A stretch of 64,000 nucleotides of DNA, taken from contig DYNP01000010.1 of NCBI GenBank assembly GCA_020721005.1, forward strand, positions 41,712-105,711. Reading direction: 5' to 3'. Every line of letters starts with the position of its first letter. Positions within the stretch are counted from its first letter, which is position 1. This DNA comes from Thiomargarita sp. (lineage in GTDB: Bacteria > Pseudomonadota > Gammaproteobacteria > Beggiatoales > Beggiatoaceae). Shown piece after piece: positions 36,993 through 47,026 of this stretch. The notes under the pieces are model-generated. The model worked only from the letters and a program-made list of their open reading frames with translations. It was not told the origin of the DNA and searched no databases. The position numbers were made by a program, and so were the translations under genes.

Positions 36993-39900
36993 ATGTTTGC
37001 ACTATCCGGCTATACGATCTCTACGACCCTTTATCATAACACTAAAACCATTCTTTACAAAGCCATTAGAGAACTGGATAAAAAGGCAGTTATTATTAAA
37101 CTATTAAACTCCGAATATCCAGCCCCCAAAGAACTATTTCGACTCAGATATGAATATGAAATTACTCAAAAAATTCAAGCCAATGGAATCATTAAATCCT
37201 ATAGCTTAGAACCTTATGACAATGGTCTGGCTCTTATTTTAGAAGACTGTGACGGTGTTTCCCTAAAAAACTATTTAAAACAACACACCCTCCACCTAGA
37301 AACCACCCTCAAAATCATTACTCAAATTGCAGAAACATTAGAAGAATTACACCAACAATCAGTCATTCATAAAGACATCAAACCTGCCAATATCATCTTC
37401 AATCCAGACACAGAACAAGTCAAACTCACTGATTTTAGTATCTCAACCCTAAATACCATTGACAATCAACTCCTTACAGCTCCCAACGTATTAGAAGGTA
37501 CCTTGGCCTACATGTCGCCAGAACAAACTGGCCGTATGAATCGCAAAGTTGATCATCGAAGCGACTTTTATTCCCTGGGAATTACTTTCTACGAAATCCT
37601 CGTTGGACAACTGCCCTTCAACTTTGAAGACCCCTTGGAACTCGTCCATGCCCACATTGCCAAACAACCCCTTGCCCCTCACCAACTTAACCCTTCAATT
37701 CCCGAACCCATCTCTAATATCGTGCTCAAACTGCTCGAAAAAAATGCGGAATCCCGTTACCAAAGCGCCTTTGGTCTAAAAATGGATCTACAAATTTGCC
37801 TGCATCAACTACAAACCACAGGCAAAATTGAACCTTTCAACTATGGCCAATATGACCTCTCCGAACAATTCCAAATCTCTCAAAAACTTTATGGCCGAAA
37901 AACCCATATAGAAACCCTACTTGCCAGCTTTGACAAAGCCTGCCAAGGACAAATGGAAATGGTACTCATCTCTGGCTATGCTGGAATTGGCAAAACTGCC
38001 CTGGTCCAAGAAATCTACAAACCCATCACCGAAAGAAAAGGCTATTTCATTTCTGGACAATTTGAACAATTCAAGAGGAACACCCCCTACAGCGCCATCA
38101 TCCAAGCCTTTGAAGAATTGATCAAACAACTCCTGGTCGAAAATGAAACCAAACTCAAAGAATGGCAAGAAAAACTGCAAGCCACCCTAGGTAACAACGC
38201 CCAAGTTATTATCGATGTCATTCCAGAATTAGAACTCATTATCGGTCCCCAACTTCCTCTCCCTAATCTTCCTCCCAACCAAGCACTTAACCGCTTCAAC
38301 CTCGTCTTTCAAAACTTCATCAGCACCTTTACCAAACCCGAACACCCACTGGTCATCTTTCTTGACGACCTACAATGGGCAGATTCTGCCAGTCTCAAAC
38401 TGCTACAATCCCTGATCACTGCCCCCTATAAACACCACCTGCTCATCATTGCCGCTTATCGGGACCATGAAGTTAAAGCTGCCCACCCCCTACAACTCAC
38501 CCTAGAAGAAATTTACAAAACCAACCAAACCATCAAATACATCTCCCTGCCCCCCCTTAACCTAACTGACATTAACTACCTACTTGCTGACACCCTAAAC
38601 ACCTCACTTGTAAAAACTCAAGCACTCAGCGAACTTATTATCAACAAAACTCAAGGTAACCCCTTCTTTGTTATCGAATTTTTAAAATCCCTCTACAAAC
38701 AAAACTTCCTCTACTTTCAAAAACCCACCTCTCCTCTATCCTTAAACACCCAACAAGGTTGGCAATGGGACCTTAGCAAAATTCAAATCTGTGACATCAC
38801 CGACAACCTGGTCGAACTCACCATCAACAAAATTCAAAAACTCTCCCCTCAAAACCAAAACATTCTGCAACTGGCCGCCTGCATTGGCCAACAATTTGAA
38901 CTAGAAACCCTGATCTCTGTCTCTGGTAACAACGCCATTAACACCATCAACTCATTACAAGAAGCAGTCCTAGAAGGACTCATTTTACCCCTAAATAATG
39001 ACCCCTTTCAACTCTCACTACTCAGTTGTTCCACTTTACTGACCATAGAAAAGCCTCCTCTAGCCTCTGAATACAAATTTGTCCATGAACGCATTCGTCA
39101 AGCTGCCTACAGTCTCATTCCCACCAAACAGCAACAACAAATTCACTACCAGATTGGCCAAGTTTTGACCCAAAATTCCTATCCCTATCAACAATCTACC
39201 GGAGAACACATTTTTGGAATCGTCAACCAACTCAATCTGGGGCGCTACCTTATCCTAGAACAAACCAAAAAAGACGAACTGGCTAAACTCAACTTACTCG
39301 CTGCCCAAAAAGCCAAAACTTCAGCAGCTTACGAATCTGCCCTCAAGTATCTGAAAATTAGCCTAGAATTGATTGGGGAACAAGCTTGGCAACGTCTTTA
39401 CCAATTTACTCTATCAGTTTCAGTGGAAGCCTCCGAAATGGCTTACTTAATAGGAACATTCAATCAAATGGAAATCCTCACTGATAACATCTTACAAAAT
39501 GCCCATTCCTTATTAGATAAAATCAGCGCCTATGAAATCAAGATGCAGGCCTACAAAGCTCAGAATAACCCCTCGAAAGCCATTGAGACGGGTCTGTTTA
39601 TTCTCAAACACTTAAATATCCATTTCCCCAACAATCCCAATAAATTACACTTTCTCATTGGCTCATTAACCACCAAACTGGCACTTCTTAGGCGACCCAT
39701 TTCTGCCCTCAGTCAACTGCCCACCATGACTGATCCCAAACAACTGGCAATCATGCGAATTCTCCTCAGCATCAGCCCGGCAATTTATGCAATCCGACCA
39801 GAATTATTGCCACTTATCACCTTTAAAAGAGTCAAACTCTCCATAAAATATGGTAATGCCTATGAATCTGCCCCAGCCTATGCTAGCTATGGTTATCTGC

Positions 39901-42347
39901 TGTGTGCCATGGAAAACGACATTGAAACCGGTTTCCAATTTGGACAACTGGCCCTACAACTCCTGGTCCAACACCGATTAGAAGAATTAAAAGCTCGCAT
40001 TTATCAAATTGTACATGGCGTCATCACACACTACAAGGAACACGTAAAAACCACACTGCTTCCCTTAAAAGAAGCTTACCAAAGTGGATTAGAAACTGGC
40101 AACTTGGAATATGCTGCCCTGTCAGCCACCACTTACATTATGCATGCCTATTTTGTTGGAAAAGAATTAAGCACTCTAACCACCGAAATCACCACCTTTA
40201 CAGAAACTTTCAAACAACTTAAACAAGAAAATTCCTTATATATAAATTGCTTATATCAACAAGTTTTGTTAAATTTACAAGACGTGGATATTAAATGCCC
40301 CACTCAACTAATTGGCAAGGCCTATGACGAAAACCAAATGTTGCCCCTGCACCTACAACAACAAGCAAAAGGCCTCGTTTTCCAAGTCTATATTAACAAA
40401 CTTATTTTATGCTATTTATTTGAAGATTACCAAAATGCCTACCAAAATGCCTTAACCGCTGAAGAATATCTAGAAGCGGTCATTGGATCACTGCTTGTGC
40501 CCCTCTTTCACTTTTATGATTCCTTGGCCAGGCTTGCTTGGTATCCCAAGGCCAATTTTAAGCAACAACAACTCATTCTTAAAAAAGTGGCAGCTAACCA
40601 AGAAAAAATGAAATATTGGGCCCATCATGCACCTATGAACTATTCCCAAAAATTCTATTTAGTTGAAGCCGAGCGTGCAAAAATTCTCAATAATTTCCTT
40701 CAAGCCAGAGAACTTTATGATCAAGCAATTGACTTGGCTCACCAACATCATTATCATATTGAAGAAGCCTTAAGCCATGAATTGGCAAGCAAATTTTACC
40801 AAAGCCGCAAACAAACTAAAATTGCTCAAGTTTACCTGAAAGAAGCCTATCATATCTATGAACGATGGGGTGCCAATCGCAAACTGAAATCCTTAGAAAA
40901 TAACTATTCCCAATTAATCCTGGCCAACAATCCATTTTCCCTGCAACCCGCAATTTTAACCAGTAAAAACCCTTCTCTATTCATCCCTCAATCTTTCTCA
41001 AATACAGTTACCATTCAAAGCAGATTAACCGATTTAGACCTGACAACCGTTTTTAAAGCTTCTCAAGCTTTTGTTGGAGAAATTGTACTTAAAAAATTGC
41101 TCAAAAAATTGATGAGAATTGCAATTGAAAATGCCGGTGCCCAACACGGTCTTTTGATCTTGGAACAAGCAGATCAATGGATAATTCATGCCAAAGCCTC
41201 AATAGAAAGACCAGAAATAGACGTTTCTCAAATTGTTTCTTTGGAAGACTCTGTGGAAGTCTCTGCCGGTATCGTGCACTATGTCATTAGGACGAAGGGA
41301 GTTGTGGTATTAAGTGACGCCAGTAAAAGCAGTAAGTTCATGTTAGATCCCCATATTTATAAAAACCGGCCCAGATCCATCTTAGCCCTTCCCCTCATCA
41401 ACCAGGATAAAATTATTGCTGTTCTCTATCTGGAAAATAACCTAGTTGCCGGTGCATTTACCCCAGAGCGATTGGAAATACTCCATCTATTATCTTCTCA
41501 AATGGCGATTTCAATAGAAAATGCCCGCTTGTATGCCGATTTGGAAGATAAAGTCAGAGAAAGAACTCGAGACCTTGCCGCTCAAAATGCCAAATTAATC
41601 GTGCTCAATGAAGAACTTATCAAACTCAATCAAGACAAAAATGAATTTTTGGGAATTGCCGCCCATGACTTAAAAAATCCTTTGTCAGCCATTCAGGGTT
41701 TGTCGGAAATGATCGAAAGAGATTTTGATGATCTTACTCGAGGAGACATCATTGAAATTGCCAACATGATTTCAGTCAGTTCGCAACAAATGTTTGAATT
41801 GATAAGAAATTTATTAGATGTCAATCGCATTGAATCTGGCAAGTTAAATGTTTCCCTAGACCGTTTCAATATTTTACCTATTTTAAAATGGATAGCTAAC
41901 GATTATCGAGATCGGGCCAAGGCCAAACACATCAAACTGCATTTTCAGCCTTCTGAAGAAGAATATTATGCCATTGTCGATGAAAAAACCATTCGACAAG
42001 TCTTCGACAATCTCATCTCCAATGCGATAAAATATTCTCCTCATGAGAGAACAGTCTATCTGCGCCTCTATCCTTACAGAAACCATCTGCATTTTGAAGT
42101 GGAAGATCAGGGACCAGGTTTAAGTGAGGAAGATAAAAAACATTTATTTGGCAAATTCAGTCGCTTGACTCCACAACCCACCGGAGATGAGAATTCAACT
42201 GGTTTGGGACTATTTATTGTCAAGAAACTGGTGGAAAGCATGAAAGGGAAAATCTGGTGTGAGAGTGAATTGGGTTATGGTTCCAAATTTACTGTCGAGT
42301 TTATAACTGAGATGCACAAGGCAGAAGACAATTTAGAATCTGGATAG
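36993..42347 (+). CDS. Ser/Thr protein kinase-AAA ATPase-GAF-histidine kinase fusion (1784 aa)
   Basis: Dual-kinase signalling protein. The STPK domain (about 6-270) has the catalytic loop IHKDIKPANI with Asp128 (HKD for HRD), DFS in place of DFG, and the activation/APE region GTLAYMSPEQTGRMN then DHRSDFYSLG. An AAA_16/NACHT-like ATPase follows, with Walker A GYAGIGKTAL (Lys334) and Walker B LVIFLDDLQWAD (about 455). About 650 residues of TPR-like helical repeats come next, then GAF (about 1350-1510) and a coiled coil. HisKA has His1558 (IAAHDLKNPLS), and the HATPase follows (about 1665-1775, NLISNAIKYSP, DQGPGL, STGLGLFIVKKL). This order is known from cyanobacterial and proteobacterial HstK-type kinases. 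No receiver is linked. Two VWA genes follow on the same strand. Confidence 0.93.
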   Translation: MFALSGYTISTTLYHNTKTILYKAIRELDKKAVIIKLLNSEYPAPKELFRLRYEYEITQKIQANGIIKSYSLEPYDNGLALILEDCDGVSLKNYLKQHTLHLETTLKIITQIAETLEELHQQSVIHKDIKPANIIFNPDTEQVKLTDFSISTLNTIDNQLLTAPNVLEGTLAYMSPEQTGRMNRKVDHRSDFYSLGITFYEILVGQLPFNFEDPLELVHAHIAKQPLAPHQLNPSIPEPISNIVLKLLEKNAESRYQSAFGLKMDLQICLHQLQTTGKIEPFNYGQYDLSEQFQISQKLYGRKTHIETLLASFDKACQGQMEMVLISGYAGIGKTALVQEIYKPITERKGYFISGQFEQFKRNTPYSAIIQAFEELIKQLLVENETKLKEWQEKLQATLGNNAQVIIDVIPELELIIGPQLPLPNLPPNQALNRFNLVFQNFISTFTKPEHPLVIFLDDLQWADSASLKLLQSLITAPYKHHLLIIAAYRDHEVKAAHPLQLTLEEIYKTNQTIKYISLPPLNLTDINYLLADTLNTSLVKTQALSELIINKTQGNPFFVIEFLKSLYKQNFLYFQKPTSPLSLNTQQGWQWDLSKIQICDITDNLVELTINKIQKLSPQNQNILQLAACIGQQFELETLISVSGNNAINTINSLQEAVLEGLILPLNNDPFQLSLLSCSTLLTIEKPPLASEYKFVHERIRQAAYSLIPTKQQQQIHYQIGQVLTQNSYPYQQSTGEHIFGIVNQLNLGRYLILEQTKKDELAKLNLLAAQKAKTSAAYESALKYLKISLELIGEQAWQRLYQFTLSVSVEASEMAYLIGTFNQMEILTDNILQNAHSLLDKISAYEIKMQAYKAQNNPSKAIETGLFILKHLNIHFPNNPNKLHFLIGSLTTKLALLRRPISALSQLPTMTDPKQLAIMRILLSISPAIYAIRPELLPLITFKRVKLSIKYGNAYESAPAYASYGYLLCAMENDIETGFQFGQLALQLLVQHRLEELKARIYQIVHGVITHYKEHVKTTLLPLKEAYQSGLETGNLEYAALSATTYIMHAYFVGKELSTLTTEITTFTETFKQLKQENSLYINCLYQQVLLNLQDVDIKCPTQLIGKAYDENQMLPLHLQQQAKGLVFQVYINKLILCYLFEDYQNAYQNALTAEEYLEAVIGSLLVPLFHFYDSLARLAWYPKANFKQQQLILKKVAANQEKMKYWAHHAPMNYSQKFYLVEAERAKILNNFLQARELYDQAIDLAHQHHYHIEEALSHELASKFYQSRKQTKIAQVYLKEAYHIYERWGANRKLKSLENNYSQLILANNPFSLQPAILTSKNPSLFIPQSFSNTVTIQSRLTDLDLTTVFKASQAFVGEIVLKKLLKKLMRIAIENAGAQHGLLILEQADQWIIHAKASIERPEIDVSQIVSLEDSVEVSAGIVHYVIRTKGVVVLSDASKSSKFMLDPHIYKNRPRSILALPLINQDKIIAVLYLENNLVAGAFTPERLEILHLLSSQMAISIENARLYADLEDKVRERTRDLAAQNAKLIVLNEELIKLNQDKNEFLGIAAHDLKNPLSAIQGLSEMIERDFDDLTRGDIIEIANMISVSSQQMFELIRNLLDVNRIESGKLNVSLDRFNILPILKWIANDYRDRAKAKHIKLHFQPSEEEYYAIVDEKTIRQVFDNLISNAIKYSPHERTVYLRLYPYRNHLHFEVEDQGPGLSEEDKKHLFGKFSRLTPQPTGDENSTGLGLFIVKKLVESMKGKIWCESELGYGSKFTVEFITEMHKAEDNLESG

Positions 42348-42434
42348 AAAATTATTCCATTGAAAGTTAGTTTACCAAAATGAGAACAACAATTGATCAT
42401 GCTCATCATAATGCCCCAGAAATGAGGTTTTGTC

Positions 42435-43382
42435 ATGCCTAAAATTACTTATCCTGTCCGTCCTTTATCGGATGTCAATGTGTTATCAGTTCCCGGTGAC
42501 TATTATGAGGTTATCACCTGTTTCATGCCCGATCCGGTGGCTATTGTTGGAGAAGGCAATTCAAAAGCCATATTGGCTTTGGACGCTTCAGCATCTTTAC
42601 GCAGTGAATATGGTTTTGGAGGAGCTTTTGGGGGCAATCCCAATTTTGTAGAATTGGTGGCTAGAAAGATTGGAACTTTGCTGAGCGAAGTAACCAAGAC
42701 CGGAACGACTGAAGCTATTTATTGGGCAGTGGGGCATGACGGCAGTTATATTGAAAAGATTGGAGAATTTACCGGTGTTGAATGGGAACAAGTTAGTATT
42801 GTCGGTCCCAAACAGCAAGTTTGGGGAAAAGGGACTAAGTTGTTGCCGGCCATTCATTATTGTGTGGAAACCACTGCCAAAGCATCGGATTGGACAATGG
42901 GAGTTTTTATCACCGATGGTATTATTGAAGATGAGATGGCTTGTTTTGAGTATTGTTTAAAAATAGGTCAGGAAATCGCTGATCATCAACGTAAGTTACT
43001 GAAATTAGTCTTAATTGGAGTGGGTAGGCAAGTGGATAAACAACAATTGGAACGATTTGATAACATGTTTGAAGGCAGCCAGTGGCAGGTTGATCTGTGG
43101 TCCAGTGGCATTGCCTGTTCCATGCGAGATGAGACCGATATCCTAAATGTACTTTATGGAGAATTGATGGATGAGCATATTGTAGTGGCTCCATCCGGAG
43201 AAGTAAGGGACAGTCAAGGTCGTATTTTAAAGTCCTGGGAACATGGGTTGCCGGGTAAACTGCGTTTTAATTTACCCAAAACTGAAAATCAATTTATGAT
43301 TACAGTCGGTGAGCATAGTATTGTACAGTCTTTATCTGAGGTGCTCAAGGAAGAGGAAACTTTGATAAAATCTAAATTTTGA
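42435..43382 (+). CDS. VWA-domain protein with intact MIDAS (315 aa)
   Basis: Soluble von Willebrand A-type protein. The metal-ion-dependent adhesion site is complete: D50-A-S52-A-S54, a downstream Thr in GKGTKLLPA, and Asp in FITDGI. The C-terminal 70 residues (VVAPSGEVRDSQGRIL, LPGKLRFNLP) look like a small beta domain. It is reminiscent of the TerY/TerF-type vWA proteins that occur with Ser/Thr kinases and PP2C phosphatases, but no phosphatase is nearby. GAGG at 42424-42427 sits 7 nt before the ATG. It begins 87 nt after the STPK-histidine kinase stop, so co-transcription is likely. Confidence 0.82.
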   Translation: MPKITYPVRPLSDVNVLSVPGDYYEVITCFMPDPVAIVGEGNSKAILALDASASLRSEYGFGGAFGGNPNFVELVARKIGTLLSEVTKTGTTEAIYWAVGHDGSYIEKIGEFTGVEWEQVSIVGPKQQVWGKGTKLLPAIHYCVETTAKASDWTMGVFITDGIIEDEMACFEYCLKIGQEIADHQRKLLKLVLIGVGRQVDKQQLERFDNMFEGSQWQVDLWSSGIACSMRDETDILNVLYGELMDEHIVVAPSGEVRDSQGRILKSWEHGLPGKLRFNLPKTENQFMITVGEHSIVQSLSEVLKEEETLIKSKF

Positions 43383-43502
43383 ATTGAGTTCAGAGTAACT
43401 ACTTGATTTTTTAAGACATGTTCAATTTGCAGATTCCCAAGAAATTTGAAAATGGTTTTTTTGACAGTGGTTTAAATAGTGGATTCTCAGGAGAGATTTA
43501 TA

Positions 43503-44921
43503 ATGTTGGAAACAATGCAGCGTTTACCTAAGCCTATTTTATTTGCCTTATTTGCAGCAGCAGGGGGAATCATGGCGGCTTTGCTGGCTGAAGTTTTTTT
43601 ATATCAACCCGCTCCGATAATAATTCCCAAATATCTAGTGTTGGCCATTGATACTTCAGGAAGCATGGCTGGGGATAAAATTGCAGAAGTGAAACAGGCG
43701 GCTTTGGAATTTGTAGAGCGGCGTCAGTCCTTTCTTGCTCCCGATCAGTTGGCCATTCTCCAATTTGGGGAACATGTTCAAGTGTTGAGTGGATTGACTC
43801 AAGATGGGAATGTATTGGGAAAAGCGTTAAGGGAATTGAAAGCTCAGGGTAACACTCCGCTCGGAGCAGCTGTACAGGAGTCCATTCGATTGTTAGAGGG
43901 GCAGGTGGGTCAACGTTATATCTTGGTGTTCACAGATGGGCAACCCACTGATTCTTTAGATAAAGTATTTAAATCCAGTGCAGAAGCTCGACAACAGGGA
44001 ATTCAACTGGTGGCTGTGGCGACTGAAGATGCTAATCAGGACGTGTTAAGACAGATGACTGGCGATCCCAAGTTGATTTTTTCAACGGTGGTGGGGGAAT
44101 TTGAACGGGCTTTTCAACAGGCGGAAGAAGCTATTTATGGGCGTAATTTGTTGACAGGTCCCCGTTTGGGACTTTCATTAACCCGTTCTCTATTACAAGT
44201 TATCGCTTGGACTGCTTTTTTGGGAATAGGAATTAGTTTGTTGTTGATCTTGGCTCAAAATTTTTCTTTACGACGACCGTTGATAAGCAATCAAGAGTTG
44301 CTGAAGGGCTTAATAGGAGGCATGGTGGTGGGTGGTATGGCCGGGTTTTTGGGACAATTCTTGTTTTTTGTGATTGCTGGTAGCACAGTGGAAGCCAATC
44401 CAACTATTTTACAAGATTTGACAACTGTATTGGCTTGGTCAATATTGGGATTGCTATTGGGCACGGGAATGGCTCAGTTTGTGCCTAACTTGGCAAGATT
44501 AAAGGGTTTATTGGGAGGAGGTGTGGGTGGATTAATCGGGGCTATAATTTTTTTGTCGATGGCAGGTTTATTGAGTGAATTAATGGGACGATTGTTGGGG
44601 GCTGGAAGTGTGGGTTTTTTTGTTGGGCTGATGGTGGCTTTTGCTGAATTGGGTAAGGAAGCTTGGCTGGTGGTGCATTGGGGACCTCAGGATAAGAGTT
44701 ATGTGACTTTGGGAAAAGATCCGGTGTTGATTGGTGCTGCAAGGAATGCTCACATTTATTTTCCCAAGCAACAGGGTTTTCCGGAAGAAATGGGGGTGGT
44801 CACTTTCAATCATGGGACTGTTGAGTTTCATAATAAGGTGACCGGGCGAAAACAAATTTTAAGAGGAGGAAGTCAGTGGACTGTGGGCAGAGTGGTTATT
44901 GAGGTGAAAGTTTCCAGTTAA
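43503..44921 (+). CDS. Membrane VWA protein with C-terminal FHA-like domain (472 aa)
   Basis: Start chosen at ATG 43503 because AGGAGA (43489-43494) lies 8 nt upstream; a GTG at 43479 would add eight residues. TM1 is at about residues 12-33. The VWA domain (about 44-215) has a full MIDAS: D50-T-S52-G-S54, Thr in QGNTPLG, Asp in VFTDGQP. Five glycine-rich hydrophobic helices follow (about 228-395; GGMVVGGMAGFLG, GGGVGGLIGA), then about 70 residues resembling an FHA domain (VTLGKDPVLIGAARNAHIYF, NHGTVEFHNKVTGR). With six helices and the N-terminus in, VWA would be periplasmic and the FHA-like tail cytoplasmic (inference). It plausibly partners the upstream kinase. Confidence 0.78.
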   Translation: MLETMQRLPKPILFALFAAAGGIMAALLAEVFLYQPAPIIIPKYLVLAIDTSGSMAGDKIAEVKQAALEFVERRQSFLAPDQLAILQFGEHVQVLSGLTQDGNVLGKALRELKAQGNTPLGAAVQESIRLLEGQVGQRYILVFTDGQPTDSLDKVFKSSAEARQQGIQLVAVATEDANQDVLRQMTGDPKLIFSTVVGEFERAFQQAEEAIYGRNLLTGPRLGLSLTRSLLQVIAWTAFLGIGISLLLILAQNFSLRRPLISNQELLKGLIGGMVVGGMAGFLGQFLFFVIAGSTVEANPTILQDLTTVLAWSILGLLLGTGMAQFVPNLARLKGLLGGGVGGLIGAIIFLSMAGLLSELMGRLLGAGSVGFFVGLMVAFAELGKEAWLVVHWGPQDKSYVTLGKDPVLIGAARNAHIYFPKQQGFPEEMGVVTFNHGTVEFHNKVTGRKQILRGGSQWTVGRVVIEVKVSS

Positions 44922-45107
44922 AAATTGTTGGGGGCTTGCAAAAATTTTTGGTCTGGATTAAAATTTCCAATGGGTTGATGAGTTGGTAATGGTAAAATCG
45001 GTTGATTATTGGATAATGAGATTGAATTATCTTAAGGGTTAAAACATGCCAATTCATTGTTTTCAAATATCTTTACGGGATAGGTCGTTTAGATTAGACA
45101 ATGGGTA

Positions 45108-46592
45108 ATGGATGTGAATATGAGTGCTGAAAATACTTCTTTACATGGAGAATGGTCTTCTCAACTGGGTTTTATTTTGGCTGCCACCGGATCGGCTGTA
45201 GGATTGGGTAATATTTGGAAATTCCCTTTTCTAACTGGCTCCAATGGCGGAGGAGCTTTTGTCATTGTCTATTTGCTGTGTGTCTTATTAATTTGCATGC
45301 CGATCATGATGGCAGAGATCCTGTTGGGAAAACGAGGTAGAAGCAGTCCCATTAACACTATGCGTAATTTAGCAAGAGAGTATGGTCATTCAACTGCTTG
45401 GCAAATCCTGGGGTGGTCTGGAGTTTTAGCTGGATTTTTAATTTTATCTTATTACAGTGTGATTGCCGGTTGGGCATTGGCTTATGTGCCTCAAGCAGCC
45501 ATGGGAACTTTTGAGGCTGTGGCTCATCTTCCGCAAGCCGAAGTGGTTGGTTTTGTGAGTGCTATTTTTGATAATTTGGTGGCTGATCCTTGGAAGTTAT
45601 TATTTTGGCACACTGTGATCATTTTACTTTGTATAGTTATTGTGGCTGGGGGCATTCAAGGAGGATTGGAACGAGCTCTGCGTTTTATGATGCCAGCTTT
45701 ATTTTTATTACTGTTGATTTTACTGGGATATGCAATGAGCACCCCCAAATTTATGGAAGGTGTGCATTTTATGTTTGATGTGGATTTTGACAAACTATTT
45801 TATCCTAACTGTACCGAATTCAGCTGTGAATTCAGCGGTCAGGGAATTTTGGCCGCCATGGGGCAGGCTTTTTTTAGTTTGAGTTTGGGCATGGGGGCAA
45901 TTATGGTGTATGGTGCTTATTTACCCAAAACAACTTCGATCACTCAGGTCGCTACCATAGTGGTTATTTCAGATACTGTGGTGGCTTTATTGGCTGGTTT
46001 GGTCATTTTCCCGATTGTATTCAGTCACGGTTTGCAACCGGATCAGGGACCAAATTTGGTTTTTAATACATTAACGGTGGCTTTTGGAAAAATGTCTGCG
46101 GGCAATTTTTTTGGCACGTTATTTTTTATATTGTTGGTATTGGCAGCCGTGACTTCTGCCATTTCTTTGATTGAGCCCACGGTGGCTTGGTTGATTGAAA
46201 CGGGTCGATTTTCACGAATAAGCGCCACGATTTTTTGTGGGCTGGCTGCTTGGCTCCTGGGTTTTTTGACGGTTTTTTCATTTAATATTTGGAAAGAGGT
46301 GAGACCTTTAACTTGGTTGATGAGTGAGCAGGCTGTGTTAGATGTGCAGCCGGGTGATTTTGTGGATAAAACATGGTTTGATGTGCTTGATTTTTTGACC
46401 TCTAATGTAATGTTGCCATTGGGGGGATTGTTGATTGCTTTATTTACCGCTTGGTTTCTAGGAGAATCAGTGTTGAAACAAGAGTTGGCGTTGGGAAATC
46501 GTGGATATAGGTTTTGGCGCTGGGTGTTGCGTTATGTGGCACCGATAGGAGTGGGTTTGATTTTTTTAAATGCAATTGGGCTATTTTCATGA
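45108..46592 (+). CDS. Sodium:neurotransmitter symporter family (SNF/NSS) transporter (494 aa)
   Basis: LeuT-fold sodium-coupled amino-acid-type transporter of the inner membrane. The TM1 signature WSSQLGFILAATGSAVGLGN followed by IWKFPFLTGSNGGGAF is diagnostic. MMAEILLGKRGR and SLSLGMGAIMVYGAYLPK (TM6 region) also fit. About 11-12 helices. A loop with two cysteines, CTEFSCEF (about 240), is unusual. Substrate is not predictable from sequence alone. An alternative ATG lies at 45120. The stop codon overlaps the ratA start (ATGA at 46589-46592). Confidence 0.93.
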   Translation: MDVNMSAENTSLHGEWSSQLGFILAATGSAVGLGNIWKFPFLTGSNGGGAFVIVYLLCVLLICMPIMMAEILLGKRGRSSPINTMRNLAREYGHSTAWQILGWSGVLAGFLILSYYSVIAGWALAYVPQAAMGTFEAVAHLPQAEVVGFVSAIFDNLVADPWKLLFWHTVIILLCIVIVAGGIQGGLERALRFMMPALFLLLLILLGYAMSTPKFMEGVHFMFDVDFDKLFYPNCTEFSCEFSGQGILAAMGQAFFSLSLGMGAIMVYGAYLPKTTSITQVATIVVISDTVVALLAGLVIFPIVFSHGLQPDQGPNLVFNTLTVAFGKMSAGNFFGTLFFILLVLAAVTSAISLIEPTVAWLIETGRFSRISATIFCGLAAWLLGFLTVFSFNIWKEVRPLTWLMSEQAVLDVQPGDFVDKTWFDVLDFLTSNVMLPLGGLLIALFTAWFLGESVLKQELALGNRGYRFWRWVLRYVAPIGVGLIFLNAIGLFS

Positions 46593-47026
46593 AACGAATT
46601 CAAAAAACCGCTTTACTGCCTTATTCTGCTCAAAGAATGTTTGATTTGGTAAATGATATTCCCACTTATCCTCAATTTTTGCCTTGGTGTAAATCGGCCA
46701 CGATTTTATCCCGGGACCAGGACAGTTTGGTGGCCACTATTGTGATGGGCAGCGCGGGGTTGGAAAAGTCTTTCACTACCAAAAACAGTCTGCAGCCTTA
46801 TCAATTGATTGAAATGCAATTGGTGGAGGGACCCTTTAGCCATTTGAAGGGACGTTGGCAATTTCTTGAGTTGGGAGGAGAGGGGTGTAAAATTTCTTTG
46901 GATATGGAGTTTGAGATTTCAAACAAGTTGTTAAGAGTGAGTTTGGAACCGGTATTTATGAAAATCACTAACAATTTAATTGATGCATTTGTTCGGCGGG
47001 CAAATAAGTTATATGGACAGTCTTAA
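46589..47026 (+). CDS. ratA: RatA-type START/Coq10-like protein (145 aa)
   Basis: Type II toxin RatA/ubiquinone-binding Coq10 family with a START-like fold. MKRIQKTALLPYSAQRMFDLVNDIPTYPQFLPWCKSA is the typical N-terminus, and RWQFLELGGEGCKISLDMEFE the later strand pair. In E. coli the homologue was reported to block 70S ribosome assembly; Coq10-type relatives act in respiratory quinone function. The ATG at 46589 overlaps the transporter stop by 4 nt and is preferred over an in-frame ATG at 46514 that lies inside the transporter gene. Its 3' end overlaps rnfH by 14 nt. smpB, a common neighbour, is not present. Confidence 0.93.
   Translation: MKRIQKTALLPYSAQRMFDLVNDIPTYPQFLPWCKSATILSRDQDSLVATIVMGSAGLEKSFTTKNSLQPYQLIEMQLVEGPFSHLKGRWQFLELGGEGCKISLDMEFEISNKLLRVSLEPVFMKITNNLIDAFVRRANKLYGQS

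Follow-up and report, generated by a model that had tools for sequence, protein, structure and literature searches.

The threonine phosphorylation pathway of the type VI secretion system (T6SS) comprises the kinase PpkA, the PP2C phosphatase PppA and the FHA protein Fha, and a VWA part is present in some PpkA proteins. The TerY-P triad comprises a TerY-like VWA protein, a PP2C phosphatase and a Ser/Thr kinase (Anantharaman et al. 2012, as described in PMC11090510). The passages of PMC11090510 on these systems connect TerY-type triads with resistance to tellurite and with predicted DNA-processing systems; for related modules the link is to phage defence. The cbSTKIII dual kinases of cyanobacteria are defined by an N-terminal STK domain, at least one GAF domain and a C-terminal HisKA/HATPase part, and occur in many copies per genome (PMC2176072).

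The window, a stretch of 64,000 nucleotides from a Thiomargarita sp. genome, was compared with these systems. Three co-directional genes had been described there from the letters alone, and they are present on the + strand together with two features inside the last of them:

36993..42347, + strand: dual Ser/Thr-His kinase gene (1784 aa), an ORF with Pkinase, AAA_16, GAF, HisKA and HATPase_c, cbSTKIII-like
42435..43382, + strand: VWA2, soluble VWA protein (315 aa), an ORF, perhaps distantly vWA-TerF-like, MIDAS residues present
43503..44921, + strand: mVWA (472 aa), with TM1, predicted periplasmic VWA, five-TM core and predicted cytoplasmic FHA-fold tail
44166..44650, + strand: conserved five-TM glycine-rich membrane core of mVWA, from homologue alignment, topology and family profile
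44670..44912, + strand: FHA-fold tail of mVWA without the Arg, Ser and Asn phosphothreonine (pThr) contacts, from model, fold comparison and alignment

The mVWA ORF opens with a GTG at 43479 (43479-44921, 480 aa) and gives 472 aa from the ATG at 43503; the latter is the likely start, in view of an upstream AGGAGA Shine-Dalgarno sequence and agreement with homologue starts. The intergenic gaps were 87 nt between the kinase and VWA2 and about 120 nt between VWA2 and mVWA, and no terminator-like site was found in either. Neither a PP2C gene nor a TerY-type kinase gene was found beside the three genes, so this locus by itself differs from a TerY-P triad.

The VWA domain of mVWA (residues 53-209) matched PF00092 over the cut-off (E 2.6e-21) and carries the MIDAS residues DTSGS...T...TDG. 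Six TM helices were predicted, one N-terminal and five later, followed by a beta-rich tail. The mean net charge over 16-17 homologues was +2.0 and +1.6 for the inner loops and -0.6 and -1.0 for the outer loops, and these positive-inside charges support an orientation in which the VWA lies outside while both the N-terminus and the tail are cytoplasmic, in line with the topology predicted in the sequence-only reading. The AF2 model of full-length mVWA was middling (pLDDT 68) and too weak for reading the TM bundle.

The tail was modelled by AF2 from a 17-sequence alignment with a pLDDT of 93.8. A PDB sequence search with the tail gave nothing useful, and its match came by fold comparison only. 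The Foldseek matches listed were FHA-fold proteins or complexes containing them (best E 1.9e-4) and included YscD/PscD chains of the type III secretion system (T3SS). A structure search against FHA had been suggested earlier as a check; in the VIA comparison, Z values ran from 11.7 down to 9.3 with about 80 residues aligned, the best of 11.7 extending across 83 of 84 residues; the 50 matches listed were FHA wherever the title names a domain, and YscD/PscD was absent among these 50. An hhalign comparison of the tail with FHA domains from the same genomes gave 82%. In the FHA register, the position of the GR Arg is occupied by Ala, Ser, Gly, Thr or Asn, the Ser position of SxxH is never Ser, and the NG segment is deleted; the canonical pThr contacts (Arg, Ser of SxxH and Asn of NG) are absent in all 17 homologue tails. 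By this model, the tail is an FHA fold without a pThr site. Its predicted fold is that of FHA domains, including the cytoplasmic domain of T3SS YscD/PscD, but it differs from them in lacking the GR, SxxH and NG signatures and any Pfam FHA match. The tail had been read as an FHA-like phosphothreonine reader; the fold was recovered while the reader was not, and since the contacts are missing throughout, pThr docking on mVWA, and with it the proposed kinase-dependent docking, is unlikely.

A search of genome contigs with the single mVWA sequence gave no match, and a search with the alignment of the five-TM core and tail succeeded, yielding 17 loci in Ca. Marithrix, Thiotrichaceae, Cyanobacteria, Planctomycetota and one Bacteroidales MAG. 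Within Gammaproteobacteria, the class of the window, few genomes have the core/tail family (2 of 369); among cyanobacteria it was found in 22 of 292 genomes, some of these being weak partial matches. Positions W, G, Q, PN and GG are invariant in 14 aligned core sequences. No Pfam or NCBIfam model covers the core, and core and tail form an undescribed family, in agreement with the earlier view that the membrane VWA-FHA component is new. The region between TM1 and the core varies: most copies have a VWA there and several a VWA_4-type domain, while locus L129 has repeats without a VWA match and L121 and some cyanobacterial copies have almost nothing. Across this family the outer VWA is optional. 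A weak match of the core profile A4 (window 44199-44909 and homologues) to the complex I subunit NDUA11 (E 0.001) was ascribed to glycine-rich TM composition, which may be all that it reflects.

In relatives, this family was repeatedly found in clusters of VWA, PP2C and kinase genes, the likeness to TerY-P on which our interpretation is based. Two Ca. Marithrix genomes carry overlapping VWA-PP2C-kinase-mVWA genes with mVWA last, one VWA gene lying beyond the contig end, and Thiotrichaceae STC_44 has a tight operon in the order mVWA-VWA-PP2C-kinase. Going by their annotated genes, both are TerY-type triads as the relevant passages of PMC11090510 describe them, differing in the membrane VWA/FHA-fold subunit, of which those passages make no mention. 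The Marithrix and STC_44 kinases have hydrophobic C-terminal segments, a weak hint that membrane recruitment may matter. TerY VWA, PP2C and kinase genes also accompany the core at L119, L121 (Bacteroidales), L126 and L132 (Planctomycetota), while L120 has PP2C and kinase genes up to the contig end and L130, a short planctomycetal contig followed to its end, has VWA and PP2C genes. At the Bacteroidales locus (L121:599-5247), four TerY-like VWA genes lie upstream of the PP2C, mVWA core and kinase genes.

Five cyanobacteria keep the order mVWA, 127 aa protein, VWA, zinc-ribbon FHA, PP2C and zinc-ribbon kinase. The zinc-ribbon FHA protein gave one Pfam FHA match (E 1e-11), and because it keeps SxxH-type and NG motifs, this separate protein is the likely pThr reader of the cyanobacterial cassettes. 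Kinase, 127 aa and VWA genes were present at 8 of 15 further cyanobacterial loci (with PP2C in 7 of those), and kinase, PP2C, 127 aa and VWA neighbours were not detected at the other 7, so the core family is not tied to triads. At three of these 7, L174, L176 and L177, the mVWA copies lie beside a DevB/DevC/DevA-like exporter and a TetR-like regulator according to by-eye annotation, and neither a kinase nor a PP2C gene was found nearby.

Clusters of the same kind were found with the relatives of VWA2. The VWA2 MIDAS appears intact (DASAS...T...ITDG); the window protein gave no Pfam match, and PF10138 (vWA-TerF-like) was matched below the cut-off by two orthologues and one paralogue. In the VWA2 orthologues (66-71%) a second VWA gene comes next, followed in G002, G007 and G026 by TerY VWA, PP2C and kinase genes, with the orthologue at the head of these clusters. 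In G002, the VWA pair is separated from the TerY triad by an uncharacterised 328 aa gene (L077:10459-11445), and the matching stretch in G026 (L084:8554-9539) is split into two ORFs. VWA2 homologues were not found in G003, G024 and G027, nor the mVWA core in G002, G007, G026 and G028; among the family genomes searched, VWA2 and mVWA co-occur in the window genome only.

The window genome itself also carries triad genes. Contig C44 has a Marithrix-type VWA/PP2C/kinase triad without mVWA, the three proteins being 60, 49 and 48% identical to those of Marithrix, respectively, and the kinase being without the hydrophobic C-terminal segments; C117 has the kinase and PP2C of the VWA2-linked triad type. 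The three TerY-P components were found together with mVWA and VWA2 relatives and on C44. The link to TerY-type kinase/vWA/PP2C triads made in the sequence-only reading is supported, and its remark that there is no phosphatase stands for the window locus but not for the mVWA operons of relatives, which carry PP2C, nor for the genome, which has the C44 triad. Since relatives keep VWA2 and mVWA with triads and the triad parts of this genome are on C44 and C117, the two look like displaced triad parts.

Because the family clusters elsewhere with kinase, phosphatase and VWA genes, mVWA is probably a membrane part of kinase/phosphatase switches; no triad gene is adjacent to it in the window genome, so we infer the partnership from relatives. 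We consider it rather probable that mVWA serves a TerY-type switch as its membrane subunit, separated here from its triad and acting in trans or re-recruited. The outer VWA would bind a metal-dependent ligand or peptide, the resulting change would be transmitted across the membrane core, and the FHA-fold tail, rather than reading pThr, would offer the cytoplasmic kinase, phosphatase and VWA proteins a surface for docking or scaffolding. After separation from its triad, probably the C44 one, mVWA would now lie beside VWA2, which would likewise have left a second triad (C117), and the adjoining dual kinase, one of eight, would be there by chance or recent rearrangement; mVWA may then act in trans or have been recruited by a new kinase. 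The combination of kinase, PP2C phosphatase and FHA protein resembles the T6SS threonine phosphorylation pathway but differs from it in domain arrangement (e.g. PMC3953482), the FHA tail of mVWA being fused to a VWA and a TM core.

More tentatively, the proteins with TM1, an optional outer VWA or other domain, the five-TM glycine-rich core and the pThr-blind tail may form an unnamed receptor family that couples outside events to kinase/PP2C/VWA switches in several phyla. If so, TerY-type systems would receive from this family an input at the membrane or an anchor there: some triads could gain both from a recurring subunit that carries a metal-binding-type VWA outside and an FHA-fold scaffold inside, and the cyanobacterial cassette is a definable gene set for direct tests. 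Alternatively, mVWA could be structural or transport-linked, and its kinase association could represent regulation of an envelope complex instead of sensing. The orphan cyanobacterial copies beside a DevBCA-like exporter, the VWA-less versions and the presence of FHA-fold domains in YscD/PscD all fit such a role, but genes for kinases, PP2C and VWA proteins are the neighbours most often seen in common, and we regard it as unlikely.

It is similarly doubtful that VWA2 and mVWA make up a new two-gene unit, rewired to the adjacent dual kinase after leaving their triads. The two genes are neighbours on one strand, relatives of each lie in triad-type clusters, and they share the sign of their strand skew, but the pair is confined to the window genome and the gap between them is about 120 nt.

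With respect to the kinase, its Pfam domains are Pkinase (residues 22-257), AAA_16 (298-486), GAF (1366-1508), HisKA (1549-1616) and HATPase_c (1663-1770), and eight near-full-length copies, the window gene and seven paralogues, are present in the Thiomargarita genome. It therefore falls within the cbSTKIII definition (PMC2176072) in its N-terminal STK, GAF and C-terminal HisKA/HATPase as well as in its many genome copies, but is gammaproteobacterial and has AAA_16 after the kinase domain. By this architecture it is a kinase of the known multi-copy STK-GAF-HisKA type. Its best relatives in G002, G003, G024 and G027 are never near a VWA partner, being on other contigs or, in G002, at least about 386 kb from the VWA homologue. 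PADLOC assignments to the defence components PD-T4-6 and MAD6 were rejected as generic kinase-domain matches. The kinase is probably a fortuitous neighbour of VWA2 and mVWA: its adjacency is not kept in the four relatives, and the trio, earlier put forward as a candidate signalling system, is unsupported as a conserved unit because its gene order was kept in no relative searched, an outcome that the sequence-only reading had itself named as refuting. That the three genes form one signalling system, with a target of the dual kinase docking through pThr on the mVWA tail, is thus very improbable despite co-directional genes, short gaps without a terminator-like site and a real FHA fold, given the missing trio, the many kinase paralogues, the loss of pThr contacts in every tail and a third-codon GC skew of -0.52 in the kinase versus +0.23 in VWA2 and +0.57 in mVWA, which suggests, without proving, that the kinase has a different history. 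The skew of the next gene is +0.43, and that of the kinase gene (36993-42347) is opposite in sign to all four downstream genes (42435-47026).
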